Source: a virus
Virus record (IMG/VR): IMGVR_UViG_3300035703_000427
Coordinates: 1-22,273 of that record
Reading direction: 5' to 3' (one strand)
DNA: 22,273 nt
Below are positions 9,710 to 21,622 of this stretch, piece by piece. Position numbers and translations under genes: made by a program. The notes below the pieces were generated by a model that was not told the DNA's origin, ran no database searches, and saw only the letters and a list, made by a program, of their open reading frames with translations. Numbering within the stretch: position 1 is the first letter of the stretch; each line of letters starts with the position of its first letter.

Positions 9710-10121
9710 GCTTGTTGCCCAGCGCCAAGCATATATATGCATTCCGCCTGCCCTGGCGCAGGAAGTGATGGCCAAGAGCCAAGAAAGCCCACCGCCACAT
9801 CCAGTGTGGGCCAGCGTGCAGCAGCGCAACCGCTACTTCGTGGTGACAGCCACATCTCTCGATGATCTGACCGAGATTGCGGACTTTGCCCGCGTGGAGC
9901 TTGAAGAACCAGAAGAGCCGCTCACTAAGGTGAGGCGCAATGCCTTCCAAACCTTGCTTGGCCGCGCCCATCGCTACGCAGTGCTAGAGCCATTAGGTGA
10001 GTGTCACTGTGTTGCCATCGCCTGGCGTGAGCAGCCTTTACGTAGCAACAAGGCATCATCGAAGATTGTGCGTGAGCTGCGTGAAGCAAAACGCAACAGG
10101 GGCTTGACACTGTATTGCTGA
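9684..10121 (+). CDS. hypothetical protein, 145 aa
   Basis: The frame is open from 9567, but the Ser/Pro-rich stretch before 9684 is out of frame with the 58-aa gene and looks non-native, so the ATG at 9684 (MTFGFSENKLVAQRQ) is chosen. The remainder appears folded: AYICIPPALAQEVMAKS, YFVVTATSLDDLTEIADFAR, FQTLLGRAHRYAVLEP, and a basic C-terminal helix. No family recognised. Confidence 0.55.
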   Translation: MTFGFSENKLVAQRQAYICIPPALAQEVMAKSQESPPPHPVWASVQQRNRYFVVTATSLDDLTEIADFARVELEEPEEPLTKVRRNAFQTLLGRAHRYAVLEPLGECHCVAIAWREQPLRSNKASSKIVRELREAKRNRGLTLYC

Positions 10122-10141
10122 TGCGGCACCATGCCGTGCAT

Positions 10142-10155
10142 GGGACGCGAGTCCC
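10142..10155 (+). other. short hairpin between genes
   Basis: GGGAC-GCGA-GTCCC is a 5-bp stem closed by a GNRA tetraloop, followed by TTCCATT. A CGGCA/TGCCG stem lies just upstream. Possibly an mRNA leader or weak terminator; no -10 box is clear. Confidence 0.3.
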
Positions 10156-10173
10156 TTCCATTGCTTCTTAATC

Positions 10174-10569
10174 ATGCATAGCAAAGTGGTTGCCGTGTCA
10201 GGCCACACCAGTGACCGTGGCATGTCCGTGTTTGCCAGGAATGTTCTTGGTAATACAGTGCCAGTGATGTTTAGTGGTGAGCCTGTCGTTGAAGGCGTGT
10301 TTCGCGTGGATGAACTGCTCCGCGCTTGCCAGTCCCTTGAAACTGCTCTCTGCGCCCTGGAGGGCCAACGCTCAGACGTTGGCCCGTCCGCAATGCTGGA
10401 CAATGCCATCAACGATTTGAACTACCTGCAAATTCGCTTGGATGCATTGGTACGTGATAGTGCCGTGATGCACGGTTCAGTGGTTGAATGCATGGCCGTG
10501 GAAAAGCCTGATCTAATGCAGGCCTATCTCAGTGCCTTTGCAAAAGCAGTTGGCCAAGGAGAAGTGTGA
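10174..10569 (+). CDS. hypothetical protein, 131 aa
   Basis: Not recognised. A beta-prone N-terminal third (KVVAVSGHTSDRGMSVFARN) precedes a helical region (VDELLRACQSLETALCALEG, LDNAINDLNYLQIRLDALV) that could form a coiled coil. It is followed after 2 nt by the 51-aa gene, so the two form one short unit that ends at the 10731 terminator. Confidence 0.5.
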   Translation: MHSKVVAVSGHTSDRGMSVFARNVLGNTVPVMFSGEPVVEGVFRVDELLRACQSLETALCALEGQRSDVGPSAMLDNAINDLNYLQIRLDALVRDSAVMHGSVVECMAVEKPDLMQAYLSAFAKAVGQGEV

Positions 10570-10571
10570 CA

Positions 10572-10727
10572 ATGGATAGAGAACTAATGGAATGGACAAT
10601 GAAGCCTTCTGAATTCTTTGAAGAGATGGCCTACCGCATGCGACGCTTGGAGAAGCGTCTGGCGAAGCTAAAGAAGACTGAAGAAGAGCTTATTTTGGAA
10701 CGCTACCGACAAGCGACTTCTGTCTAA
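10572..10727 (+). CDS. small coiled-coil protein, 51 aa
   Basis: MDRELMEWTMKPSEFFEEMA is followed by a strongly charged helix (RMRRLEKRLAKLKKTEEELI) typical of a short coiled coil. It starts 2 nt after the preceding stop and ends just before an intrinsic terminator. Its stop codon overlaps the end of the opposing HNH gene. Confidence 0.55.
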   Translation: MDRELMEWTMKPSEFFEEMAYRMRRLEKRLAKLKKTEEELILERYRQATSV

Positions 10728-11242
10728 TCCAAGGCCCCATCAGGGGCCTTTTCTTTTGCCTGCGCCCAGGTGGAATCATTTGGTAGCGGCTCGGTGCGAA
10801 GCAATCTCCATACGTGGGTCTGGCTGCATCCCGCGATCTGTGCAATTTCCCTTTGACTCTTTCCATCTTCTCTCAAGGAGCTGATTTTATCGATATCACT
10901 CGACGATAATTTCTGGTGTGGATAGTGGCCATATCGCTCCATAAATGCTTGCATGTTTTCGGAATGCGAACACCATTCAAGATTGGACGCGTGATTATTT
11001 GTTTTGTCATGGTCTATATGATTGACGCAGTTCCCATCGCCCTTCGTTAGCCAAGTTTCCGCAACGGCTCTATGCACGTAGTAACTAGCCCTGCTGCGGC
11101 CAGGCTTGAACATCAAATAACCATTGCCAGGGTTTTTGTACAACTTGAGCAGTCGACGAGGCCCCCTTACTTGCCCGCAAGCCGAAACAAAATACCCAGG
11201 GCAATTATTTATTGCCTGAAATTCAATATCCATTTCAATCAT
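10724..11242 (-). CDS. HNH homing endonuclease (NUMOD4-HNH-HTH)
   Basis: From ATG 11242, preceded by AGGAA, the 172-aa protein shows a NUMOD4-like start (residues 5-30, GYFVSACGQVRG), the HNH_3 core (VHRAVAETW, then CVNHIDHDKTNNHASNLEW at 72-90 with the His-Asp-His and Asn residues) and a C-terminal helix-turn-helix (SQREIAQIAGCSQTHVWRLL) for DNA recognition. This is the usual order of free-standing phage homing endonucleases, which nick a target and spread the gene. Its start overlaps the 51-aa minus gene by 8 bp and its last codons run through the opposing terminator. Confidence 0.85.
   Translation of the reverse strand: MIEMDIEFQAINNCPGYFVSACGQVRGPRRLLKLYKNPGNGYLMFKPGRSRASYYVHRAVAETWLTKGDGNCVNHIDHDKTNNHASNLEWCSHSENMQAFMERYGHYPHQKLSSSDIDKISSLREDGKSQREIAQIAGCSQTHVWRLLRTEPLPNDSTWAQAKEKAPDGALD
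10731..10757 (+). terminator. intrinsic terminator
   Basis: AAGGCCCC (10731-10738) pairs with GGGGCCTT (10743-10750) over a 4-nt loop and runs into TTCTTTT. It ends the 10174-10727 unit and lies inside the 3' end of the opposing HNH ORF. Confidence 0.8.
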
Positions 11243-11390
11243 TTTCCTGCTTCCAAGTAATGTCCCCTGGTATCGGTTCCATGCCAACTTCCCACGTGTC
11301 GTAATCCTCTTCATTGCGCGGGTCGTACACCACGCCGTGGCGCAACCATTGCGCAAGACGTTCCTTTTCCTGCTCTGGTGAAAGCTTCAT
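11235..11390 (-). CDS. hypothetical protein, 51 aa
   Basis: MKLSPEQEKERLAQWLRHGV, then VYDPRNEEDYDTWEVGMEPI and PGDITWKQEND, form a small acidic protein with a helical start. It has a good promoter upstream (TTGATA-17-TATACA) and a short leader. Its TGA overlaps the HNH start, so the endonuclease is probably translated from its mRNA. Function unknown. Confidence 0.6.
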   Translation of the reverse strand: MKLSPEQEKERLAQWLRHGVVYDPRNEEDYDTWEVGMEPIPGDITWKQEND

Positions 11391-11408
11391 GCCGGGTCCG
11401 GCCAATGC

Positions 11409-11437
11409 TGTATAGAGCCTAGCTAGGTATGTATCAA
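11409..11437 (-). promoter_or_regulatory. promoter with palindromic spacer
   Basis: On the minus strand TTGATA (11437-11432), a 17-bp spacer and TATACA (11414-11409) make the best sigma-70 match in the window. The spacer contains the palindrome CCTAGCTAGG (11418-11427), a likely repressor site. The segment 11422-11436, GCTAGG-TAT-GTATCA, resembles the core of the 21-bp repeats at 16743-16828. Confidence 0.65.
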
Positions 11438-11441
11438 TGAA

Positions 11442-11467
11442 AAAGGCGGGCTTTGAGGCCCGCCTTT
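11442..11467 (-). terminator. bidirectional terminator hairpin
   Basis: AAAGGCGGGC (11442-11451) pairs with GCCCGCCTTT (11458-11467) over 6 nt. The minus-strand product ends in five T residues, making it the expected end of the candidate ncRNA from 11664. Towards the plus strand it is followed by CTTAATGG. Confidence 0.8.
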
Positions 11468-11664
11468 CTTAATGGTTGTGGCCTCCGATGAGCAATTTTA
11501 CCTACAGGAGCAAAGCTCAACCATAGGGACAGTGCGCTCCTGAGGCCCATGCGATGCCTCGACTCACTCCGTCACGAAGATCGTCCACACTGTCTCGCCC
11601 GTCCACCCTTACGGCTCGCCAAGCGAATGACGAGGGAAGCGATTAAGCCCCCAGGACCGACCAC
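11442..11664 (-). ncRNA. candidate structured RNA, about 220 nt, minus strand
   Basis: The 11468-11740 stretch has no convincing ORF but holds long-range pairings. GGGACAGTG (11526-11534) pairs with CACTGTCTC (11588-11596, one G-U), enclosing GAGGC/GCCTC (11542-11560) and ACGA/TCGT (11574-11584). ATGGTTG (11472-11478) pairs with CAACCAT (11518-11524). The domain ends in the strong terminator at 11467-11442 in the minus direction, and a TACTAT -10-like box lies at 11676-11671. It resembles neither RNase P, SRP, tmRNA nor 6S RNA by the signatures I can recall. Strand is inferred from the terminator. Confidence 0.4.
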
Positions 11665-11745
11665 TCGGAAATAGTAGCACCAGCAACACCAAGCTGCTCC
11701 CCGCATCAATCCTTAAGAAATTCGCAGGCCAGGCGAAAAATAGGG

Positions 11746-11777
11746 CACAATAGTGGGACTGCAAAGCCGGCGACGGC
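11746..11777 (+). promoter_or_regulatory. -10 box and GNRA leader hairpin of the RlpA-like gene
   Basis: CACAATAGT (11746-11754) supplies a -10 box. Eleven nt later GCCG-GCGA-CGGC (11766-11777) forms a 4-bp stem with a GCGA tetraloop. The hairpin lies 31 nt before the ATG, farther than in its relatives. Confidence 0.55.
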
Positions 11778-11808
11778 CTGCAGCTCCTGGAGCTACTCCC
11801 CCATTCTG

Positions 11809-12165
11809 ATGCTTCGATTTCTGTCTTCTCTCCTGCTGCTGGGCACCATTGCACCATCCGCCCAGGCAGCAGCGTTTCAATGCGGCCAAGCAAGCCACTA
11901 CGGCATTGGCGATGGCTACCACGGGCAGCGGACTGCCTCTGGCCAACGCTTCGATGCCTATGGCATGACCGCCGCCCATCCATCGCTGCCACTGGGCTCT
12001 CGCGTGGTTGTAAAGAACCGTGACAATGGTCGCACCGTGTTGGTGACCATTAATGATCGCGGTCCTTACGCTGGTGGCCGCGTGCTTGATCTGTCCTACG
12101 GCAGCTTCTCTCGCATTGCTTCGCCCGGTCAGGGCGTAGCCAACGTCTGCATCTCCCGAGCCTGA
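11809..12165 (+). CDS. RlpA-like double-psi beta-barrel protein, secreted
   Basis: The 118-aa protein has a signal peptide (MLRFLSSLLLLGTIAPSAQA, cleavage expected after AQA at residue 20) and one RlpA-like barrel: ASHYGIGDGYHGQRTASGQRF, AAHPSLPLGSRVVVKN, NGRTVLVTINDRGPYAGGR and VLDLS. His57 and Asp83 are at the positions of the conserved His and Asp of RlpA. RlpA enzymes cleave denuded peptidoglycan glycan strands. No SPOR domain is present, and Cys25 and Cys114 could form a disulfide. In this context it may remodel the cell wall or be a host-derived cargo gene. It shares an operon with a small membrane protein. Confidence 0.8.
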   Translation: MLRFLSSLLLLGTIAPSAQAAAFQCGQASHYGIGDGYHGQRTASGQRFDAYGMTAAHPSLPLGSRVVVKNRDNGRTVLVTINDRGPYAGGRVLDLSYGSFSRIASPGQGVANVCISRA

Positions 12166-12189
12166 TTAGCTCACCCACCTCCTGGAACC

Positions 12190-12369
12190 ATGCTTGACCG
12201 CCTCGCTTCTCTCAGCTTCCTGCTCACCGTTTGTAGCCTGGGCGTCTTTGTCCTGATTGCTGCTCCACAGGTGCAGCCCAATCACGAAGGCCTGGCCAAA
12301 TGCCAGGAGCTTCATCCCGTTCGCTATTGCCGAATTGCGAATGGCTTCCCCGTGGAGCCCCTGCGCTGA
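12190..12369 (+). CDS. small membrane-anchored two-cysteine protein, 59 aa
   Basis: MLDRLASLSFLLTVCSLGVF plus VLIAA form one N-terminal hydrophobic segment, followed by a short exported tail with KCQELHPVRYC and RIANG. The two cysteines are 8 residues apart. The protein encoded at 17489 has the same plan (hydrophobic start, Cys-x8-Cys, then an xxG end). It is 24 nt downstream of the RlpA-like gene and ends before a strong terminator, so the pair forms an envelope-directed operon. Function unknown. Confidence 0.6.
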   Translation: MLDRLASLSFLLTVCSLGVFVLIAAPQVQPNHEGLAKCQELHPVRYCRIANGFPVEPLR

Positions 12370-12390
12370 TACGCTGCCCCTGGAATGTTC

Positions 12391-12414
12391 GCCCCCGCTT
12401 GACGGGGGCTTTTT
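12391..12414 (+). terminator. intrinsic terminator
   Basis: GCCCCCG (12391-12397) pairs with CGGGGGC (12403-12409) over 5 nt, followed by five T residues. It separates the RlpA-like operon from the SWIM gene promoter. Confidence 0.88.
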
Positions 12415-12421
12415 CATGCTC

Positions 12422-12447
12422 TAATATTCCCGCAAGCCCGAGAGGGT
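12422..12447 (+). promoter_or_regulatory. -10 box and GNRA leader hairpin of the SWIM gene
   Basis: TAATAT (12422-12427) is followed 8 nt later by GCCC-GAGA-GGGT (12436-12447), a 4-bp stem (one G-U) with a GAGA tetraloop. The start codon is 18 nt further on and lacks a Shine-Dalgarno sequence. Confidence 0.6.
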
Positions 12448-12465
12448 GATCCTTCTTCAACCACC

Positions 12466-12861
12466 ATGACCGTCTCTTCTCATTTCCGCGTCAGCAAGAA
12501 AGCCCAAACTGCCCTGGGCATCACCGTGCTGAACGTGCTGCAGCATTGCGTAGTCATCCGCACCGAGCGTGGCCCTCGCTTTATGAGTCGTAAGGTGTTT
12601 GATTCCTGGGAGGCTAAGCAGCGTGCCCATAAGGCACGCGGGTGCCATGCCCGCTACATCGCCAACAATGTGTGGATGGTGCTTGATCCCACCACTCCCA
12701 CTGATGCTCACACTGTCATCCGCACTGGCGCCTATGCCAAAGGCATTGAAGGCAAGTGGAGCTGCACCTGCACTGATGCCCATTTCATGATGGAGCGTGG
12801 CCAGGAGCCCTGCTGCAAGCATATCCTTGCAGCTCACATGCAACTCAACATCGGCTCATGA
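12466..12861 (+). CDS. SWIM zinc-finger protein, 131 aa
   Basis: The C-terminal part contains WSCTCTDAHF...EPCCKHILAAH: Cys100-x-Cys102, about 14 residues, Cys117-x-His119, the SWIM zinc-finger pattern. SWIM domains bind DNA or proteins and occur in recombination factors. The N-terminal 95 residues (LNVLQHCVVIRTERGPRFMS, CHARYIANNVWMVLDP) resemble no named domain that I know. It opens an ATGA-coupled run of five genes (12466-13834) with its own promoter and leader hairpin. Confidence 0.7.
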   Translation: MTVSSHFRVSKKAQTALGITVLNVLQHCVVIRTERGPRFMSRKVFDSWEAKQRAHKARGCHARYIANNVWMVLDPTTPTDAHTVIRTGAYAKGIEGKWSCTCTDAHFMMERGQEPCCKHILAAHMQLNIGS

Positions 12862-13055
12862 ACGATCTTTATTACCCTTCATTGGACTCCCTGGAAGATC
12901 GCCTGGGTGATGCACTTGGCCTTGCCCTGGGCATCATCCGCGATCCTGAGGGCAAGGCTCTCACCAATCAAAACATGGCCATCATTGAAAAGGCATTCAA
13001 GGAATGGTGTGACAAGCAAATTGATGAGCTGGCAAATGAAAAAAACAGCTTCTGA
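12858..13055 (+). CDS. hypothetical helical protein, 65 aa
   Basis: The ATGA start overlaps the SWIM gene stop. The protein begins MNDLYYPSLDSLEDRLG, then a hydrophobic helix (DALGLALGIIRDPEG) and an amphipathic helix (IEKAFKEWCDKQIDELA). No family recognised. It overlaps the next gene's start by 20 bp. Confidence 0.55.
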   Translation: MNDLYYPSLDSLEDRLGDALGLALGIIRDPEGKALTNQNMAIIEKAFKEWCDKQIDELANEKNSF

Positions 13056-13293
13056 CGCTGGTTTTGATGGGGCTAGGGGCATTCGACTGAATAATCCCCT
13101 CATGAAAGATGGAGGTATTTATCAGCTCCGTCGTGGCACCACCGATCCCAGGCGGCTTGACATTGATTGCCGAGAGCAATTGATTTGGTATATGCCCGAA
13201 GGCCAGGATCCTGAACTCTGGTGGTGCAATGCCAACAATGAATGGTTCCTGCTTTCATTTGAGCCGATGATGCCCGTCCACATTGCTGCATGA
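13036..13293 (+). CDS. hypothetical protein, 85 aa
   Basis: ATG 13036 gives MKKTASDAGFDGARGIRL; a later ATG at 13102 (MKDGGIYQL) is an alternative that would avoid the overlap. The body is beta-rich with many Trp and Asp (REQLIWYMPEGQDPELWWCN, EWFLLSFEP). It couples to the following gene through ATGA. Function unknown. Confidence 0.5.
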   Translation: MKKTASDAGFDGARGIRLNNPLMKDGGIYQLRRGTTDPRRLDIDCREQLIWYMPEGQDPELWWCNANNEWFLLSFEPMMPVHIAA

Positions 13294-13619
13294 CAATGAC
13301 ACAGCAACATCCCATCACCCCACCGCCAGAGCTGATGGAGCAGTGGATGCAAGTTCACACCACCAAGTACGACCTGGCCCGTCAAGCCGCCCAATGGGGC
13401 GCAGATCAGGAGCTGGAGGCGTGCTGTGAGTGGTTTCAATCGAATGGCTATCACGAGTTCCTGCCAGACAAACTCCGCGCCGCCCGCCGCCCCAAGCCGC
13501 CGAGCTTGAAGGAGCAGGCGCTAGAGGATCTGCACATTGCTTTTGACACGGGCTGTTTCAGCGAACGACAGGCCGACACCATCCGCCGCGCCCTTGAACA
13601 GCTTCCCGACGACGCATGA
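13290..13619 (+). CDS. conserved cyanobacterial/cyanophage protein, 109 aa
   Basis: The sequence AAQWGADQELEACCEWF, then ARRPKPPSLKEQALEDL and IRRALEQLPDD, matches my memory of a family widespread in picocyanobacteria and their phages, with no known function. It is helical and acidic, with no membrane segment or metal site beyond a Cys-Cys pair. The ATG overlaps the previous stop (ATGA) and the next gene starts the same way. This is one of the better markers of a picocyanobacterial association. Confidence 0.65.
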   Translation: MTMTQQHPITPPPELMEQWMQVHTTKYDLARQAAQWGADQELEACCEWFQSNGYHEFLPDKLRAARRPKPPSLKEQALEDLHIAFDTGCFSERQADTIRRALEQLPDDA

Positions 13620-13834
13620 TTGAAGAATACAAGCGCTCTTGTAAATTCACCGCTCTGAAGCCCTTCGACTACTTCGCTAAAGAGGGCCATTTCATGGAAC
13701 TCTCGGAGTGGTACAACGGAGAGGGCTTCGACCTTCACGTCGAATCAAGCAATGGCGCACAACGCCTTTCCCTCTCCTGGGGAGAATGGAAGGCCATGCA
13801 AGCCCTGGTGGGAAATGATGAAGATGAGGACTAA
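13616..13834 (+). CDS. hypothetical protein, 72 aa
   Basis: ATGA-coupled to the preceding gene. The product (MIEEYKRSCKFTALKPFDYF, FMELSEWYNGEGFDLHVESS, LSLSWGEWKAMQALV) looks like a small alpha/beta domain with an acidic tail (GNDEDED). It is the last gene of the SWIM unit. No family recognised. Confidence 0.55.
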   Translation: MIEEYKRSCKFTALKPFDYFAKEGHFMELSEWYNGEGFDLHVESSNGAQRLSLSWGEWKAMQALVGNDEDED

Positions 13835-13891
13835 GGCCGCCATTCAGGGGCGGCCCCGCCTGAGACAGACCAGGCTTCACGAGGCCTGGTC
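13835..13891 (+). terminator. two hairpins ending the SWIM unit
   Basis: GGCCGCC/GGCGGCC (13835-13855) and GACCAGGC/GCCTGGTC (13868-13891) are perfect 7- and 8-bp stems. Neither has a U-tract, so termination may be partial. Confidence 0.5.
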
Positions 13892-13955
13892 GTAACGACG
13901 CTCTATCGCCGGTAACGCCCCATGAAGAAATCAATGGGCTCCATCACCATAGTCA

Positions 13956-14168
13956 ATGGCTAAGTTTCCCGTAGGCGCCATCGTCGATCTCTACGACTTC
14001 GGCTTCCATCAATGGCGAGGCGAATATATCGTCATCAAAATCCCAGAGGGCGAGCGCCCTCTCTACAGAATCCGCAACACCAAGACCAATAGCCAACAAT
14101 GGGTGAAGGAGACTGCCCTGCGCGTTGGCCGCCTGGGGCCGTTCCGCATTGAAAGCTTGCAGCCCTGA
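13956..14168 (+). CDS. small SH3-like protein, 70 aa
   Basis: MAKFPVGAIVDLYDFGFHQW, then RGEYIVIKIPEGERPLYRIR and WVKETALRVG, reads as a short beta-barrel resembling SH3 or KOW-like modules, judged only from the strand pattern. The ATG is immersed in a 13-codon reading frame (13922-13963) whose TAA overlaps it; a leader peptide is possible but unsupported. Function unknown. Confidence 0.5.
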   Translation: MAKFPVGAIVDLYDFGFHQWRGEYIVIKIPEGERPLYRIRNTKTNSQQWVKETALRVGRLGPFRIESLQP

Positions 14169-14179
14169 GCGCCATGGTG

Positions 14180-14213
14180 TAGGATTCTGGGCATCGGAGC
14201 CGGAGACGGTTCC
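14180..14213 (+). promoter_or_regulatory. -10 box and GNRA leader hairpin of the zinc-finger gene
   Basis: TAGGAT (14180-14185) precedes GGAGCCG-GAGA-CGGTTCC (14196-14213), a 7-bp stem with one G-U and a GAGA tetraloop. The ATG lies 16 nt downstream with no Shine-Dalgarno sequence. Confidence 0.65.
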
Positions 14214-14229
14214 TCAAGCCTGAACCACC

Positions 14230-14595
14230 ATGATCACCACCTTCAAAACCACCTGCGTTTGCCCCAACTGCGACGGCAAGGGCAAGCTGCCTCACTACAG
14301 CCACATCGCTAACGGCGACTGCTTTGCCTGCGGCGGCACCGGCACCCTCAAGATCACTGAATTCATCGGCGACAACTCCGACGTGATCCTGGAAGTGAGC
14401 ACCCGCAATGGCCAGTTTGATAATGCTTGCCTGCGCTGCCGTACCTGGAAGAACGACCGTGCTGGTGACGGCAAGACCTATCACACCTGGGGCAAGGACA
14501 AGTGGTGCCGTGAAATTGTCGATGCCAATGAGGCTCGTGAGCTGTGGCGCAATGCCAAAGCCAACGGCATCAAGACAAGCCTCTGGGAATATTGA
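14230..14595 (+). CDS. DnaJ-type zinc-finger protein, 121 aa
   Basis: Residues 8-40 contain CVCPNCDGKGKL...CFACGGTGTL, two CxxCxGxG knuckles of the DnaJ cysteine-rich type that should bind one zinc. A second Cys pair (CLRC) and WCREIVDANEAREL follow. I recall similar small zinc-finger proteins in cyanophages. There is no J domain, so it is not a co-chaperone; protein-protein or nucleic-acid binding is plausible. It is a single-gene cassette with its own promoter, leader hairpin and downstream hairpin. Confidence 0.65.
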   Translation: MITTFKTTCVCPNCDGKGKLPHYSHIANGDCFACGGTGTLKITEFIGDNSDVILEVSTRNGQFDNACLRCRTWKNDRAGDGKTYHTWGKDKWCREIVDANEARELWRNAKANGIKTSLWEY

Positions 14596-14609
14596 GCTTT
14601 GTTAAGCAG

Positions 14610-14635
14610 GAGCAGGGCCACCAAGGCCCCTGCTC
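14610..14635 (+). terminator. terminator-like hairpin after the zinc-finger gene
   Basis: GAGCAGGG (14610-14617) pairs with CCCTGCTC (14628-14635) over 10 nt; the T-tract is weak (TTGCT). The next -10 box starts 10 nt later. Confidence 0.6.
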
Positions 14636-14644
14636 TTGCTGGTG

Positions 14645-14672
14645 TATAGTTCTCTCACGGCCGGCGACGGTC
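14645..14672 (+). promoter_or_regulatory. -10 box and GNRA leader hairpin of the 71-aa gene
   Basis: TATAGT (14645-14650) in the context GGTGTATAGTTCT is followed by GGCCG-GCGA-CGGTC (14659-14672), a 5-bp stem (one G-U) with a GCGA tetraloop. The ATG is 18 nt downstream. Confidence 0.65.
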
Positions 14673-14690
14673 CCATTCGCAACCATCGAA

Positions 14691-14906
14691 ATGACTCTGA
14701 CCGAGAAGGAGCAACTGCTCTACGCTTCCATTCAAGACGGCATGGATGAGCCTGGCTGTGGCTGGCTCCACGAGCTTGATCCTTTTAATGACAGCCATGT
14801 GTGTGCAGGTGTGCTAGGAGCACTAATCACTAAGGGGCTAGTACATTCATACCAAGATGAAGATTTCCCCGATTGCTATTGGGTGACCCTCCTGGAGCAG
14901 GGCTGA
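14691..14906 (+). CDS. small winged-helix-like protein, 71 aa
   Basis: MTLTEKEQLLYASIQDGMDE, then a WLHELDPFND and AGVLGALITKGLVHSYQDED pattern, resembles a compact winged helix in which the last helix and wing read LxxLxxKGLV. DNA binding is a reasonable guess, not shown. The stop TGA overlaps the next ATG (TGATG). Confidence 0.5.
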   Translation: MTLTEKEQLLYASIQDGMDEPGCGWLHELDPFNDSHVCAGVLGALITKGLVHSYQDEDFPDCYWVTLLEQG

Positions 14907-15127
14907 TGAAACACTATCCCTCTTATGAAGCGCGCCTGGAGGCTGACCGCCAGGCGCAAAACAGCGGCTACGGCATTCAGCAATACCTTTGTTCTGATGG
15001 CTCCCGCAAGTGGGAAGCTTATGGCTGGGAGCGCATCACTGAACTGCAGCTCCACTACACCAGCTACGGCATTTTTGACCACAAGTGGCAAGCTGAGCGT
15101 TATTTCAACAACATCATCCATTCCTGA
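14906..15127 (+). CDS. hypothetical protein, 73 aa
   Basis: The ATG is shared with the previous stop (TGATG). The product starts MKHYPSYEARLEADRQAQNS and is Tyr/Gln/Trp-rich (GYGIQQYLCSDGSRKWEAYG, LHYTSYGIFDHKWQAERYF), suggesting a small mixed alpha/beta domain. Function unknown. The next gene begins 3 nt later. Confidence 0.55.
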   Translation: MKHYPSYEARLEADRQAQNSGYGIQQYLCSDGSRKWEAYGWERITELQLHYTSYGIFDHKWQAERYFNNIIHS

Positions 15128-15130
15128 GCC

Positions 15131-15409
15131 ATGAGCCTCCGCACTGTCCACGGCTTCACCGTGCCCTCCGTCCATCTCAACGGCACTGGCGCCACTACGC
15201 TCCGCGAGGAATACGCCGCTGCCTACGAAGCCCTCAACAAGGCCGTAGAAGCCTTCGTGAATACCACCTGCAATGCCCGTGATTTCTACGTGCAGGACCA
15301 AGGAGCCTTTGATAAGGCCCGCCACGAGCGGGCCGAGGCCCTGGAGCAGCTCAGGAAAAGCCAGCACTACGTTGGCTCAGTGCTGATGGGCATTTGTGAC
15401 CAAATGTGA
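15131..15409 (+). CDS. conserved phage protein, 92 aa
   Basis: The signature VPSVHLNGTGATTLREEYAA, then a helix, an RDFYVQDQGAFDKARHERAE stretch and a C-terminal helix, matches a small protein family common in many phages (I...HLNGTS...L..., NGRDYY). Its role is unknown to me. It is the last gene of the three-gene unit starting at 14645 and is followed by a strong terminator. Confidence 0.65.
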   Translation: MSLRTVHGFTVPSVHLNGTGATTLREEYAAAYEALNKAVEAFVNTTCNARDFYVQDQGAFDKARHERAEALEQLRKSQHYVGSVLMGICDQM

Positions 15410-15414
15410 ACACT

Positions 15415-15444
15415 GAAAGCGGGGCTCCCAAGGCCCCGCTTTTT
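15415..15444 (+). terminator. intrinsic terminator
   Basis: AAAGCGGGGC pairs with GCCCCGCTTT over a 7-nt loop and is followed by TTC. The next -10 box begins at 15452, so termination and re-initiation are only about 10 nt apart. Confidence 0.88.
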
Positions 15445-15451
15445 CATGGTG

Positions 15452-15482
15452 TATAGTTCTGTCATCGGGCCGGCGACGGTCC
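15452..15482 (+). promoter_or_regulatory. -10 box and GNRA leader hairpin of the ssb-like gene
   Basis: TATAGT (15452-15457), again in GGTGTATAGTTCT, precedes GGGCCG-GCGA-CGGTCC (15467-15482), a 6-bp stem (one G-U) with a GCGA tetraloop. The ATG is 17 nt downstream. Confidence 0.7.
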
Positions 15483-15499
15483 ACCACCCCTGGAGCATC

Positions 15500-15760
15500 A
15501 TGACTGTCAATTCCATCACCCTCGTTGGCCGCAACAGCGAAGTGGCCCTGAGCCGCACTGAAAGCGGCTCCGCTTTCGCCTCTTTCTCCATCGTCATCAA
15601 GCGTGGCGAGCAGACTGCCACCATCCCTTGCGAAGCCTGGGGCAAGCTTGCCGAAAAGGCCGCAACCATGGAAAAGGGCATGCTGATTGGCCTGATTGGC
15701 CCTCTCACCAAGGACAAGAAGGTGCGCCTGGATTGCCTGGAGATCCTGGCCGGAGCGTGA
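15500..15760 (+). CDS. ssb: SSB-like OB-fold protein without acidic tail
   Basis: The 86-aa protein follows the SSB OB-fold order: VNSITLVGR (strand 1), ASFSIVIKRG, TIPCEAWGKLAEKAATMEKG (the typical W-G-K-L-A-E block) and MLIGLIGPLT...VRLDCLEIL. It should bind single-stranded DNA during replication or recombination. It is about half the usual SSB length and lacks the Gly/Pro-rich linker and the acidic DDIPF-type tip, so it probably cannot recruit SSB partners itself; the primase-helicase ends in such a tip instead. It is a single-gene cassette between two terminators. Confidence 0.8.
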   Translation: MTVNSITLVGRNSEVALSRTESGSAFASFSIVIKRGEQTATIPCEAWGKLAEKAATMEKGMLIGLIGPLTKDKKVRLDCLEILAGA

Positions 15761-15768
15761 GTCCTGCG

Positions 15769-15787
15769 GGGCCGCCTCAAGCGGCCC
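15769..15787 (+). terminator. intrinsic terminator after ssb-like gene
   Basis: GGGCCGC (15769-15775) pairs with GCGGCCC (15781-15787) over CTCAA, then TTATCCTTATCTTTG. Confidence 0.75.
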
Positions 15788-15819
15788 TTATCCTTATCTT
15801 TGTTCTTCTCAATGTGATC

Positions 15820-16056
15820 ATGAGCTTTATGGGTTTAATCGCGGTCGAGCATCCTTGGTGTGTTGGCTGCGACGCTGGGATTCACGAGGATTTTCTCCCA
15901 ACAGAATTTGGTGAGGATGTGCAATGTCCAATCGAAAGCACTGCCTACAAATGTCCGCACTGCGGCCTTGAAATGAGCATAGAAAGTCACGGTAATGGCA
16001 TGTTCAATGTCTACCCAGACGAGGATACACTCCCAGGGAGAGACGAATTCTTTTGA
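15820..16056 (+). CDS. small zinc-ribbon protein, 78 aa
   Basis: ATG 15820 (MSFMGLIAVEHPWCVGC) is taken as the start; MGLIAVE at 15829 is an alternative. Two CxxC knuckles, CVGC and CPHC, with a further VQCP, suggest a zinc ribbon or rubredoxin-like fold. The C-terminal part is acidic (YPDEDTLPGRDEFF). The role is unknown; short metal-binding proteins like this occur among phage early genes. Confidence 0.55.
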   Translation: MSFMGLIAVEHPWCVGCDAGIHEDFLPTEFGEDVQCPIESTAYKCPHCGLEMSIESHGNGMFNVYPDEDTLPGRDEFF

Positions 16057-16088
16057 TATATATCCTTTCCCCATCGATATATCCGAGA
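16055..16088 (+). promoter_or_regulatory. AT-rich leader with repeated GATATAT
   Basis: GATATATATC (16055-16064, a palindrome) and CGATATATCC (about 16075) repeat within 34 bp just before the 61-aa gene. They provide -10-like TATAT boxes and may also be operator half-sites. Confidence 0.35.
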
Positions 16089-16091
16089 ACC

Positions 16092-16277
16092 ATGCAAGAC
16101 GCCATCAACATCATTGCCATCTCTAAAAAGGGCAAGTCCCGCATTGGCACCAAGCTCACCACTGCCATTGTTGAACAGGATCACCACGATAAAATCTTCG
16201 TTGTGTTTCCTGAGCTAAATCAATGCAGGTGGATTCGCAAAGACAACGATCCTGACTTTTCTATTGTTGATTTCTGA
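16092..16277 (+). CDS. hypothetical protein, 61 aa
   Basis: ATG 16092 gives MQDAINIIAISKKGKSRIGT followed by beta-prone segments (KIFVVFPELNQCRWIRKDND). It is basic at the start and acidic at the end; no family recognised. The next gene begins 4 nt after its stop. Confidence 0.5.
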   Translation: MQDAINIIAISKKGKSRIGTKLTTAIVEQDHHDKIFVVFPELNQCRWIRKDNDPDFSIVDF

Positions 16278-16281
16278 AACC

Positions 16282-16587
16282 ATGCGCTACGTCTGCAACT
16301 ACAACGATCACGGTCCCTATTTCAGCGCTACGCAAGGGCAATATCAAGCAGCTCGCCTCAAAGAGCTGCTGATGCACGTGCGAGTGTGCATGGAAGACGC
16401 AGATCAGGCCATTGGCGTGTTTGACGATGATTCAGAATGCATTGGCATGTGGCTTGATGAAGCAGAGCCCGTCGATGACGGGGAAGGTGGCATGGTGTTG
16501 GGCAAACCGTGCTATCAGCTCTATCGCCCAGGCGACATGAGCGCCGGATTGTGGAACATGCACCTTCGCCATTTCAACAGGCCATGA
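16282..16587 (+). CDS. hypothetical protein, 101 aa
   Basis: ATG 16282 is preferred to an upstream in-frame TTG because it follows the previous stop directly. The product reads MRYVCNYNDHGPYFSATQGQ, then AARLKELLMHVRVCMEDADQ and an acidic segment. It may be a small regulator but nothing specific is recognised. It ends ATGA-coupled to the 52-aa gene. Confidence 0.55.
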   Translation: MRYVCNYNDHGPYFSATQGQYQAARLKELLMHVRVCMEDADQAIGVFDDDSECIGMWLDEAEPVDDGEGGMVLGKPCYQLYRPGDMSAGLWNMHLRHFNRP

Positions 16588-16742
16588 TTCTCATCGATTT
16601 CTTCTCTGAAGCCGCCTGCAAGGGCACCGAACTGATTGAAGGATGGTATTTCTACGCTGATGATGATGATTCTGTCATTGGTGGACCTTTTCCTGATGAG
16701 GAAGCCGCCCTCAAGGCGGCTTTCGATGGGCATTCTTGGTGA
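16584..16742 (+). CDS. hypothetical acidic protein, 52 aa
   Basis: The start overlaps the previous stop (ATGA). The product MILIDFFSEAACKGTELIEG, then WYFYADDDDSVIGGPFPDEE and AALKAAFDGHSW, has a run of four Asp and the look of small phage or cyanobacterial proteins. It is the last gene before the repeat arrays. Confidence 0.55.
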   Translation: MILIDFFSEAACKGTELIEGWYFYADDDDSVIGGPFPDEEAALKAAFDGHSW

Positions 16743-16828
16743 GACCCGGCCAGGTGTGTATTGGACCCGGCTAGATGCGTATTTAGGAACCGGCTAGGGT
16801 CGTATCAGACCCGGCTAGAGTTGTATCA
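16743..16828. repeat. four tandem 21-23-bp repeats
   Basis: Copies start at 16743, 16764, 16787 and 16808. The consensus is GACCCGGCTAG followed by RGTYGTATCA. Twenty-one bp is two helical turns, so a protein could bind all copies on one DNA face. Directly adjoining an AT-rich block, the array looks like iterons or a partition/operator site. Confidence 0.75.
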
Positions 16829-16890
16829 TTGTTTATTCTTATTATTTTTCAGTTGTTAATTATAATTACTTTTTCAATTTGTTATTCTTA
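16829..16890. other. AT-rich segment between the two repeat arrays
   Basis: About 62 bp of very AT-rich DNA contains the palindrome TAATTATAATTA (16858-16869) and one of two copies of TTATTCTTATTATT (16833 and 16882). It could be the unwinding element of an origin. Confidence 0.5.
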
Positions 16891-17113
16891 TTATTAATTA
16901 ATTGCAATTCTCGGCAATAACAATAAAGAATTAATCACACTTTTTGGCAGTTATTAATAACAATTAATTGCACCTTGAGGCTATAAAGAATAAAGAATTA
17001 ATTGCACTTTGTCGTTGTTAACAATAAAGAATTGATTGCATCTTGCGAGTATAAAGAATAAAGAATTAATCCGCCTTTGAAAGTATAAAGAATAAAGAAT
17101 TGTGTGCCAATCC
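16891..17113. repeat. seven-copy 33-34-bp periodic repeat array
   Basis: Copies of a degenerate unit, best form TAAAGAATTAATTGCACTTT, begin at 16891, 16924, 16957, 16991, 17025, 17059 and 17093, with spacing 33, 33, 34, 34, 34 and 34. Three copies carry an extra upstream ATAAAGA, giving ATAAAGAATAAAGAAT. The strict register shows real tandem organisation. The array is AT-rich and may be an origin or centromere-like site. It is not a CRISPR, because the spacers are not unique and the repeats vary. Confidence 0.75.
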
Positions 17114-17440
17114 GGCCTGCTGTCACAGCGGCCCTTTTGTCTGTATCCGTTGCTACATTCTGGCCCTTTGTAAGGTTTCGCAATATTTGCGCCGTTTGCC
17201 CCTGGCCGTGCTAACGGCCCCGACCCTTTGCCCCCGCTTGTGCCAATCGACGGCCTGGCCTGCCGCTGGGTTGACGCGGGGGCCTGCCATGCGGTACGCG
17301 CGGGCGCGATCGTCTTGCTTTGCTTTGGCACGGACCAGCAGTCAGCGGCCCCCTACCATCGCTGGCCGCCCAAAGCCCCTAGCTAGTGGGCCACCTTTGG
17401 CTCTGGCCTAGTTGCCCTGGGCTTTGCCCCTTGTGCTTGG
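17114..17440. other. GC-rich non-coding segment
   Basis: About 330 bp without a credible gene. Composition switches abruptly here from AT-rich repeats to GC-rich DNA. Open frames exist but encode Cys/Arg/Pro-rich shadow sequences. A CTAGCTAG octamer occurs near 17378. Nothing else is supportable. Confidence 0.5.
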
Positions 17441-17469
17441 CAATATTTGGGGGCGCCCGAGAGGGTGCC
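17441..17469 (+). promoter_or_regulatory. -10 box and GNRA leader hairpin before the 54-aa gene
   Basis: CAATAT (17441-17446) precedes GGCGCCC-GAGA-GGGTGCC (17452-17469), a 7-bp stem (one G-U) with a GAGA tetraloop. The ATG lies 19 nt downstream. Confidence 0.65.
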
Positions 17470-17488
17470 GATTCCTGCAAATTCAGCC

Positions 17489-17653
17489 ATGCCCGCTCTC
17501 ACCCTGACTGCAAAGCTTGCCGCTGTGTTCGGCGGTTCTCTCCTAGCCCTTTTCACGGCCTCGCTTGCCGTAGAGGATCAACGGCACTTCATCGCTTGCC
17601 GCGCCACGGGCGCCAGTGCCGACGCTTGCCTGCTGCAGATCAGCGGCCGCTGA
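17489..17653 (+). CDS. small membrane-anchored two-cysteine protein, 54 aa
   Basis: MPALTLTAKLAAVFGGSLLA plus LFTASLA forms one N-terminal hydrophobic segment, followed by EDQRHFIACRATGASADACL and LQISGR. The Cys-x8-Cys pair and short exported tail mirror the 59-aa protein at 12190. The segment encoding ACLLQI is nearly identical to one in the neighbouring GP88-like gene. It is first in the GC-rich operon, behind the leader hairpin. Function unknown. Confidence 0.6.
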   Translation: MPALTLTAKLAAVFGGSLLALFTASLAVEDQRHFIACRATGASADACLLQISGR

Positions 17654-17696
17654 TCCTGCCCCTTTTCACACCGTCAACCACACACCACCCAAAGCC

Positions 17697-19301
17697 ATGC
17701 CCGCCACCACCGTTCCCGCCACCGCCGCCGATTATCTGGGCCACGTGAGCCAGGGCACTTGTAAGGATGCCGGCCTCAAGCGGCCCACCTTTGCAAGCGT
17801 GAGCCAGGCCGCCAAAGCCCTGGCCCTGCCCGCTTCCATCGCCACTACCTCCCACGGCTACAGCGTCAACCACGCCGCCGGCCCTGACCTTTGTCGCAAC
17901 CTGGCCGACGTGGCCGCTTGCCTGCTGCAGATCCACCACACTCAGTGGCGCGTGAGCCCTGCAGGCAAAGCCAGCGCCGCTGCCCGTTTGCGTGCCCGTG
18001 CTGCAAAGGGCAAGCCAGCCCTGGCCCCCCACGTGGCCGCCGCTTTGGGCTGCAGCCCTGCCCCTGCAGCCCCTGCCCCTGTCAGCCCTGCCGAGCGTGT
18101 GGCCGATGAGATGCTGGCCGCTTTGGCAGATCTGAGCCGCAAGTGGGAGGCTGAGCCCGCAAGCTTTGCCCCGATCGTGCCCGCTGGCCCTGCTGCCCGC
18201 AAGACGGCCCCCGCCGCTGTGCCCGCTGACGTGAAGGCGCACCTGGCCCGCTTTGGCCTGGCCGTTGACGGCCTGCTGACCGTAGGGGCCTCCAATGCCA
18301 AGCTGGCAAAGGGCAAAGCCCTGGCCTGGCCCGTCATCCTCCATCACCTGCCCGCCAAAGCCCTGGCCCAGGCCGTGGCCGGCCCCAAAGCCGGCCCAAC
18401 GGCCCCACGCTCCCGGATCGAGGGCCTGGCCGAACTGGCCAAAGCCACCAACACCTACAGCCTGGCCCTGGCCCATAATGGCTGCCCCTGGGCCTCTGCT
18501 GGCTGTGCTGCTGGCTGCCTGGCCTGGGCTGGCCATGGTGGAATGTCAACCACAGTGGCCGCTGCCCGTGCCCGCCGCACCCTGGCCATGCTTGCCGATG
18601 GCCGCACCTACGCTCGGGCCGTGCTTTGGGCCATCGCTCGAGCCTACCGGCAGGCCCAGGCCAAAGGGCTGCCCCTGGCCGTCAGACTGCGCGGCACAGA
18701 CGACAGCCCCGTCCACCTTTGGCGCTTTGACGTGAGCGCAGCAGAGGCCCAAAGCCTGGCTCGCCGTTACGGCCTGCCCGTGGCCCCTGGCCAGGGCCTG
18801 ACGCTGCCAGAGGCCCTGGCCCTGGCCCCTGCCGGTGCTGTGCACTTTTATGAGTACAGCAAAGCCCCCGCCTATGGCCCGCTGGGCCTGCAGGCCCAGG
18901 CCAGCGCTGGCTTTGACGTGACAGCCTCGCTAGCAGCAGACCGGCCAGACGGGCTCAGTCAGGCCCTGCAGGCCATGACCGCTGGGTTCCGCCTGGCCGT
19001 GCCCGCTGGCTTTGCAAAAGGCCAGGCCCTGCCCCCTGTGCTGCTGCTGCGCGTTCACCCGGAGGCCCCCGCCTGGCGGTTGCTTTGCATCGATGGCGAC
19101 ACCACCGATCACCGCTGGGCCGACCCTGCAGGGCCTCAGCCTGGGGGCTTTGATGGCGTGGCCGTGCTGCTGCGCACAAAGCGCAGCAGGGGCAAAGGGC
19201 CAGAGGCCGACGCATTCAGCCTGGCCCCTACCATCGGCGAATGGCAGCCCCTGGCCGGTGGTGGCCAGGCAGCATTCAGCACCACGCAATGGGAGGCCTG
19301 A
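17697..19301 (+). CDS. GP88-like protein, Ala-rich, 534 aa
   Basis: Start at MPATTVPATAADYLG. Residues 1-240 are Ala/Pro-rich with low complexity. Residues 245-400 resemble the phage GP88 family: TYSLALAHNGCPWASAGCAA and GCLAW (Cys263, 270, 274), a helix of RAR-type repeats, VRLRGTDDSPVHLW in place of the usual VRIHDSGDF, and VHFYEYSKA (383-390). The C-terminal part continues as mixed alpha/beta with LLLRVHPEAP and MTAGFRLAVPAG. The family's biochemical role is not known to me; the Cys cluster suggests metal binding. DNA here reaches about 80% GC locally, unlike neighbouring genes, suggesting separate ancestry. Confidence 0.6.
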   Translation: MPATTVPATAADYLGHVSQGTCKDAGLKRPTFASVSQAAKALALPASIATTSHGYSVNHAAGPDLCRNLADVAACLLQIHHTQWRVSPAGKASAAARLRARAAKGKPALAPHVAAALGCSPAPAAPAPVSPAERVADEMLAALADLSRKWEAEPASFAPIVPAGPAARKTAPAAVPADVKAHLARFGLAVDGLLTVGASNAKLAKGKALAWPVILHHLPAKALAQAVAGPKAGPTAPRSRIEGLAELAKATNTYSLALAHNGCPWASAGCAAGCLAWAGHGGMSTTVAAARARRTLAMLADGRTYARAVLWAIARAYRQAQAKGLPLAVRLRGTDDSPVHLWRFDVSAAEAQSLARRYGLPVAPGQGLTLPEALALAPAGAVHFYEYSKAPAYGPLGLQAQASAGFDVTASLAADRPDGLSQALQAMTAGFRLAVPAGFAKGQALPPVLLLRVHPEAPAWRLLCIDGDTTDHRWADPAGPQPGGFDGVAVLLRTKRSRGKGPEADAFSLAPTIGEWQPLAGGGQAAFSTTQWEA

Positions 19302-20920: not shown

Positions 20921-21622
20921 ATGGTCAAGCAGAGGCCTTTGCAGCGCAAAACTGACGGATGGGTGTATTTCGTGCAATGGTCGTCGATGCCGTGGATAGT
21001 CAAGATTGGCTTCACCACATCGCCACAAGACCGTTTTGCATCGTTTCTCACTTGTTCAGCGGACACGCTGGTGGTGCTGAAGATTTTTCAGGCTCCGCGT
21101 GAAATGGAGAAGGATTTGCATGATCGTTTTGATGCAGCAAGAGAGAGGAGAGAGTGGTTTCGCCTGTCTGCAGCGATCAAGAGGTATTTGCAGGAGGAAG
21201 CACCCTGCCAAACGCTTGAAGCCAAGGTGAAATTTGGCAAAGGCATGGAAGACGACGTGAAATGGGTGCCCATGAGGCAAAACACGTCTGTGCTGCTAGA
21301 GGCGATGAAACAGGAGCAGCGCATCCCAGGGTTTATCAAGAATGCAAGGCTCTATACGCTTTGGGCCATTGATGATCTTGATACGTGCGATTATTTCGTC
21401 ACATCGAATGCCATCATTCATCACGAAGCAAATCGTGACATCTACAAAGCGAAAACTATTTACAACCAGTTGATGGATTTAGAAGAGGAGAAGCTTATTG
21501 CAAAAAAGAAGGACAAAACATTTTCTGTCACAGAAGAGGGCAAATTGGAACTAGAGAATGCGGAGCTTGATCACGCAAAAGCGAAACCAAGAAAAAGTGC
21601 GAAAAGCTTAAGACTTAGTTAA
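20921..21622 (+). CDS. T5orf172/Mug113-type (GIY-YIG-like) protein with winged helix
   Basis: The 233-aa protein opens with GWVYFVQWSSMPWIVKIGFT, then DRFASFLT, LKIFQAPREMEKDLHDRFD and REWFRLSAAIKRYL (residues 13-90), the T5orf172/Mug113 domain related to GIY-YIG nucleases and found in many phages. Residues 155-215 (IYNQLMDLEEEKLIAKKKDK, then TFSVTEEGKLELE) look like a winged helix. The combination suggests a DNA-binding regulator or nuclease. The C-terminus is basic. It stands alone with its own -10 box; the next gene follows after about 80 bp. Confidence 0.7.
   Translation: MVKQRPLQRKTDGWVYFVQWSSMPWIVKIGFTTSPQDRFASFLTCSADTLVVLKIFQAPREMEKDLHDRFDAARERREWFRLSAAIKRYLQEEAPCQTLEAKVKFGKGMEDDVKWVPMRQNTSVLLEAMKQEQRIPGFIKNARLYTLWAIDDLDTCDYFVTSNAIIHHEANRDIYKAKTIYNQLMDLEEEKLIAKKKDKTFSVTEEGKLELENAELDHAKAKPRKSAKSLRLS

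Follow-up and report, generated by a model that had tools for sequence, protein, structure and literature searches.

Stem-loops at the 5' ends of messages such as ompA and papA protect messenger RNA (mRNA), and any stable hairpin serves for protection of this type. 5' hairpins impede RppH and stabilise the mRNA (review PMC3997798). Other phage leader hairpins are read by protein, as are the boxB loops of lambdoid phages by the N peptide (PMC12550061) and the operator hairpin of gene 43 in T4 and RB69, the loop of which is conserved (PMC3014915). Leader elements repeated before many phage genes are also known, namely the SAS and ESAS elements of cluster K mycobacteriophages, to which motifs in phages of Microbacterium are comparable. 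The SAS element has a fixed sequence of 13 bp with Shine-Dalgarno (SD) character and lies right at the start codon, and the authors who described ESAS found little support for mRNA hairpins (PMC3203893, PMC7302621). Here we describe an element in which the stem changes are clearly compensated, the loop is strict and the downstream genes are unrelated and number in the tens. It lies in the virus contig IMGVR_UViG_3300035703_000427 (positions 1 to 22,273; this whole stretch of 22,273 nt is called the window), in which a short leader hairpin with the loop GCGA or GAGA (together GMGA) recurs upstream of open reading frames (ORFs).

Comparison across genomes showed that this hairpin is used many times per genome by siphoviruses of aquatic cyanobacteria resembling Synechococcus siphovirus S-CBS4. 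Its nearest precedent is SAS/ESAS, alike in distribution and different in form. Both are leader elements that recur upstream of numerous non-structural genes unrelated to each other, are confined to a single region of the genome and are absent from most other phages; the SAS/ESAS inverted-repeat consensus differs between subclusters, which we counted as a further likeness. Unlike SAS/ESAS, the present element combines a fixed loop with a covarying stem and mostly lacks SD sequences, and in place of a fixed 13-bp SD-like sequence a few nt from the start we found leaders that are C-rich and G-poor, with an SD-like 4-mer before only 4 of 56 hairpin ORFs. The hairpin resembles the stabilising stem-loops of ompA and papA in lying at the predicted mRNA 5' end and differs from them in that only GCGA and GAGA loops rise above chance, before tens of gene families in one phage group. 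With boxB it shares a small leader hairpin of about 5 bp, a GNRA-type fold and a place near a phage promoter, but it heads many small units and not a few early operons. The gene 43 operator is likewise a leader hairpin with a conserved loop, yet it is a single autoregulatory site with the loop UAAC about 40 nt upstream, whereas GMGA stands before many genes. The GGA in the loop that marks CsrA/RsmA sites is not the rule here, GCGA being the loop at 110 of 162 sites. Rfam (release 15) gave no match at the gathering score in the window, a permissive Rfam search of positions 10001-17600 returned sub-threshold matches only, and the literature searches that we ran found no description of such an element. 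An earlier examination of the window (the sequence-only reading) had stated that no described element of this layout was known, and as far as tested this holds: within the broad and familiar class of phage leader hairpins, this element is new.

That reading had listed six hairpins, each downstream of a -10 box. The pattern GCCSGMGASGGY matched exactly these six in the window, all on the + strand (11766, 12436, 14199, 14660, 15469 and 17455), where 0.07 matches would be expected by chance in shuffled sequence. A seventh hairpin was absent from the list; it scored 28.6 bits in the covariance model described below, of which it is itself one of the 56 training rows. The sites are as follows.

10127-10132, + strand: -10-like box CACCAT of the seventh site
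10142-10155, + strand: seventh hairpin, GGGAC-GCGA-GTCCC, 18 nt before ATG 10174 (131-aa ORF, orthologue in S-CBS4 at 63695)
11746-11754, + strand: -10-like CACAAT / AATAGT of site 1, read from the sequence and kept in relatives
11766-11777, + strand: hairpin 1, GCCG-GCGA-CGGC, 31 nt before ATG 11809 (gene 11809-12165, rare lipoprotein A / lytic transglycosylase-like DPBB protein)
12422-12427, + strand: -10 box TAATAT of site 2, downstream of a terminator-like hairpin at 12391-12409
12436-12447, + strand: hairpin 2, GCCC-GAGA-GGGT, 18 nt before ATG 12466 (131-aa ORF, weak SWIM zinc-finger match)
14180-14185, + strand: -10 box TAGGAT of site 3
14196-14213, + strand: hairpin 3, GGAGCCG-GAGA-CGGTTCC, 16 nt before ATG 14230 (121-aa protein)
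14645-14650, + strand: -10 box TATAGT of site 4
14659-14672, + strand: hairpin 4, GGCCG-GCGA-CGGTC, 18 nt before ATG 14691 (71 aa)
15452-15457, + strand: -10 box TATAGT of site 5, just 3' of a GC-rich inverted repeat and T run near 15418-15445
15467-15482, + strand: hairpin 5, GGGCCG-GCGA-CGGTCC, 17 nt before ATG 15500 (SSB-like protein)
17441-17446, + strand: weak -10-like CAATAT of site 6, separated from its hairpin by just 5 nt
17452-17469, + strand: hairpin 6, GGCGCCC-GAGA-GGGTGCC, 19 nt before ATG 17489 (54 aa)

The distance from -10 box to hairpin had been given as 8-13 nt, which is right for sites 2 to 5 (8, 10, 8 and 9 nt) and wrong for site 6, where CAATAT is the only candidate; at site 1 the gap is 11 nt if AATAGT is the box and 14 nt if CACAAT is. 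Five of the six listed hairpins do lie 16-19 nt before an ATG, site 1 being the one at 31 nt. The claimed lack of a clear SD is not strictly true of all sites, since GGAG stands 4 nt before the ATG at site 5 and far upstream at site 1.

The closest named relative of this virus is S-CBS4 (host Synechococcus CB0101), which is 92% identical to window positions 11269-14672 over the matching part and carries a RecA-family ATPase 96.5% identical to that of the window. For the early proteins tested (the 131-aa and 121-aa proteins and the product of ORF 10174), S-CBS4 was the only match by tblastn among named phages (50,697 phage records). About 40 contigs of uncultivated relatives were collected using two window proteins as queries.

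Within the window alone the compensatory stem changes are modest (C-G against G-C at one pair), and the strong case for them came from the relatives. We based the covariation test on hairpin 3, aligning the orthologous leaders of gene 14230 from sequence alone into 18 rows. All five stem pairs showed two-sided changes and 97.8% of cells were paired, while sliding one arm by 1-3 columns dropped pairing to 34-57%. RNAalifold, unprompted, returned the same five-pair hairpin from this alignment. Stems before orthologous genes in relatives read GAGGC/GCCTC, GGGCA/TGCCC, GAGCG/CGCTC, GTCC/GGAC, CTGA/TCAG and GGGGGA/TCCCCC, and despite these differences the loop remains either GCGA or GAGA. In a count that did not select for pairing, GMGA hairpins no more than 50 nt from the start codon persist in 17 of the 19 gene 14230 orthologues (18 if a G-U closing pair is accepted in contig L130) and in 16 of the 18 gene 12466 orthologues. 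A set of 56 diverse sites, selected because they pair, gave 106 cells with a two-sided change and 18 extra pair types. At stem pair 4 of 63 sites we counted G-U 19 times and A-C once; this tolerance fits a sense-strand RNA, and column composition explains part of it. Six of the seven window leaders fold as drawn with ordinary energies (z-scores +0.4 to -1.4), and the structural case is therefore built on comparison. This comparison showed that the hairpin is cis-acting and selected as a single-stranded, sense-strand nucleic acid, most simply mRNA. Both covariation and related sites in relatives, on which the sequence-only reading had staked its proposal, are thus present, and its structural part (a hairpin, closed by a loop of GNRA type on a compensated stem, that recurs in relatives) is supported.

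We next consider the loop, for which hairpins of at least 4 pairs with each of the 256 tetraloops were counted in the window, S-CBS4 and the relatives, "near" meaning 10-30 nt before an ORF starting with ATG. Clear enrichment before ORFs was found only for GCGA (79 near, 91 elsewhere, p=1e-32) and GAGA (38 near, 63 elsewhere, p=8e-13); redundancy among relatives inflates these p-values, and the contrast between loops is independent of it. In the same genomes GAAA, GCAA, GGAA, GTAA, GGGA, GTGA and UUCG hairpins showed no enrichment before ORFs, nor did the complements TCGC and TCTC, so that the loop is strand-specific. The GNRA tetraloop proposed earlier was thus of the right type, and the rule is tighter. 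As a negative control, S-CBS2 and 119 unrelated viral contigs gave no GMGA enrichment; the control contigs came from a broad scan of viral contigs with the DNA pattern TATANT...GCCSGNGASGGT and are mostly chance matches.

The layout around the hairpin is regular. It consists of a G+C-rich stem of 4-7 bp closed by the GMGA loop, and among 162 distinct sites a -10 box was present at 75%, compared with 15% of random positions. The gap from box to hairpin was mostly 8 or 9 nt (72 of the 121 sites with a clear box), and the linker from hairpin to ATG peaked at 16-18 nt. Judged by the predicted -10 boxes, the hairpin would sit where the mRNA 5' end should be. Each gene family has its own linker length, in most cases 14-20 nt and sometimes 5-7 or 29-31: single families have 7 in one case, 14 in another, and 17-18 or 29-31 in others, and the gene of hairpin 1, which is kept in relatives, has a linker of 29-31 nt in most. 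The leaders contain 12% G, as opposed to 23% in the leaders of other ORFs, and the 4 SD-like 4-mers before 56 hairpin ORFs compare with 97 before 430 others. No sequence is common to the leaders. Terminator-like hairpins lie within 95 nt upstream of 24 of 114 sites as against 37 of 600 other ORFs, and the units therefore look like small independent genes.

Uncultivated relatives carry the element at 205 sites with a -10-like box, upstream of at least 47 protein families unrelated to one another, and 37 loci have three or more sites. Within each genome the sites are grouped in a single region. The seven of S-CBS4 lie between 63.6 and 68.8 kb (63662, 64828, 65501, 66675, 67137, 67590 and 68728), and the further matches at 21516 and 4427 are small, lie elsewhere in the genome and do not fit the layout. 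A covariance model trained on the 56 diverse sites matched 11 of 12 larger relatives, and the element-bearing records include some whose only shared protein is an SSB-like one, 36% identical and detected by the search. Five other cyanosiphoviruses, S-CBS1, S-CBS2, S-CBS3, S-LBS1 and KBS-S-2A, showed no significant family of sites (first 30 kb for S-CBS1, S-CBS3 and KBS-S-2A). S-CBS2 gave weak covariance model matches (E 0.009-0.04); of these, the match at 34687 is a genuine hairpin with a GAGA loop, 7 nt upstream of an ORF, and a second resembles a terminator. The 66-kb genome G010 (L203-L206) shares several S-CBS4 genes, yet it is essentially without the hairpin family, and no replacement hairpin family was seen in it; it thus offers a natural comparison. 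The 92-aa protein encoded at window positions 15131-15409 and the SSB-like protein co-occur with the element, but not in all genomes.

As an unbiased check, contigs were fetched by the promoter string GSTGTATAGTTCTNTCA alone, which yielded 51 distinct places. A GMGA hairpin followed the string directly at 17 of them, while any tetraloop hairpin was found at only 1 of the remaining 34. Several of these other places, in another group of uncultivated phages (L209, L212, L215, L228, L241 and L243), instead carry a GGCG-GAGGA-CGCC leader with the SD inside the pentaloop, right before the ATG. L243 and L244 are 87-95% identical over most aligned stretches and differ at the promoter locus, where one has the SD leader with its gene and the other has the GMGA hairpin, another gene and its own terminator. 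Because this swap occurs after an identical promoter, the hairpin travels with the gene cassette and not with the promoter. The single L243/L244 case hints that hairpin and SD could substitute for each other.

Taken together, these observations are consistent with a loop-recognised, cis-acting hairpin at the mRNA 5' end, a model to which we assign a probability of roughly 0.5. Host RNA polymerase would start from the host-type -10 box, making the hairpin the first structure of the mRNA. A specific partner would recognise the GMGA loop; this would be an RNA-binding protein, encoded by phage or host, or else some component of the 30S ribosome. Such recognition would let the mostly SD-less mRNAs load ribosomes and/or escape decay. 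The genes that carry the hairpin would form one post-transcriptionally controlled set. The stem would only present the loop, which would explain why its sequence drifts. The functions suggested by the sequence-only reading, namely stabilising the mRNA, placing the ribosome and binding a factor, are inferred; the lack of SD sequences and the family-specific linker point to translation or mRNA fate. A more far-reaching version is a phage-wide regulon, in which a dedicated partner would read GMGA at the mRNA 5' end and enable SD-independent translation or stability in place of the usual ribosome-binding site; this is a tentative proposal that we consider doubtful. Several observations weigh against the loop-recognition model. 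Among the proteins common to S-CBS4 and all element-bearing genomes, none resembles an RNA-binding regulator. The lack of SD is relative, an SD-like 4-mer being present at 2 of the 7 S-CBS4 hairpin genes and at window site 5. Linker length varies between gene families, which is unexpected if the hairpin places the ribosome at a fixed distance. Finally, stems are more alike within a genome than between genomes (54% vs 45%, 0 of 300 shuffles), so that cassette copying explains part of the similarity; co-evolution with a partner would, like such copying, be expected to produce it.

If the hairpin were a plain protector, burying the 5' end from pyrophosphohydrolase and RNase E in the manner of ompA and papA, then the loop would only cap the stem. 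The position at the predicted 5' end in most sites, the near-constant gap to the -10 box, the linker that differs between families and the documented hindrance of RppH (PMC3997798) all suit this explanation, but a cap for stability should also use GAAA, GCAA, GTGA or UUCG, none of which is enriched, and linker length is fixed per gene family. Since any stable loop would do, the strict GMGA loop is difficult to account for by pure 5'-end protection, which we regard as rather unlikely. Loop-restricted leader hairpins of other phages are read by protein (boxB, the gene 43 operator), and by this analogy recognition by a factor would be favoured; the data favour loop-specific recognition over pure stabilisation. 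A factor of another kind would act if an N-like phage protein read the hairpin as a boxB so that polymerase passed the terminators between the small units. The boxB-like anatomy in an early leader, the recognition of boxB by the N peptide by way of such loops (PMC12550061) and the excess of upstream terminator-like hairpins speak for antitermination. On the other hand, no shared boxA-like sequence was apparent by eye in the leaders (no systematic scan was made), no N-like candidate appeared among the proteins common to element-bearing genomes (small basic proteins would escape this comparison), and many units own a promoter, which would make read-through partly redundant. We therefore hold antitermination to be improbable.

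Two explanations remain. A regulator of phage transcription acting at a dyad operator or cruciform site immediately 3' of the promoter would account for the constant place relative to the -10 box and for stems alike within one genome. An operator would keep its sequence, whereas here the relatives vary the sequence of the stem and preserve its pairing, the loop is tied to one strand, and G-U is tolerated where A-C is not; covariation and loop asymmetry led us to reject the DNA operator, which is largely refuted and very improbable. A functionless unit of promoter and leader that spread by copying within the genome and was then inherited agrees with the swapping at L243/L244. Inert copies decay, but orthologues from several gene families show compensated stem changes beneath an unchanged loop, and for the hairpin itself we rejected an inert repeat on these changes and on loop asymmetry, leaving it scarcely credible.

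Because S-CBS4 is a cultivated phage with a cultivated host, Synechococcus CB0101, the question is directly testable. Should a protein or the ribosome turn out to read the loop, it would show how some cyanophages translate or protect mostly SD-less genes, and it would provide a small RNA tag for cyanobacterial engineering.

Two further features of the window lie near or beyond the last hairpin. Four GACCCGGCTAGA..GTAT-like repeats at 16743-16826 are followed at 16828-17094 by AT-rich repeats (AATAAAGAATTAATTGCAC, 34-nt spacing), and together (16743-17094) they look like an iteron array beside an AT-rich replication origin. G+C content is about 52-55% in most of the window and rises to near 69% at 17500-19300, a stretch that contains a GP88-like ORF (17697-19301).

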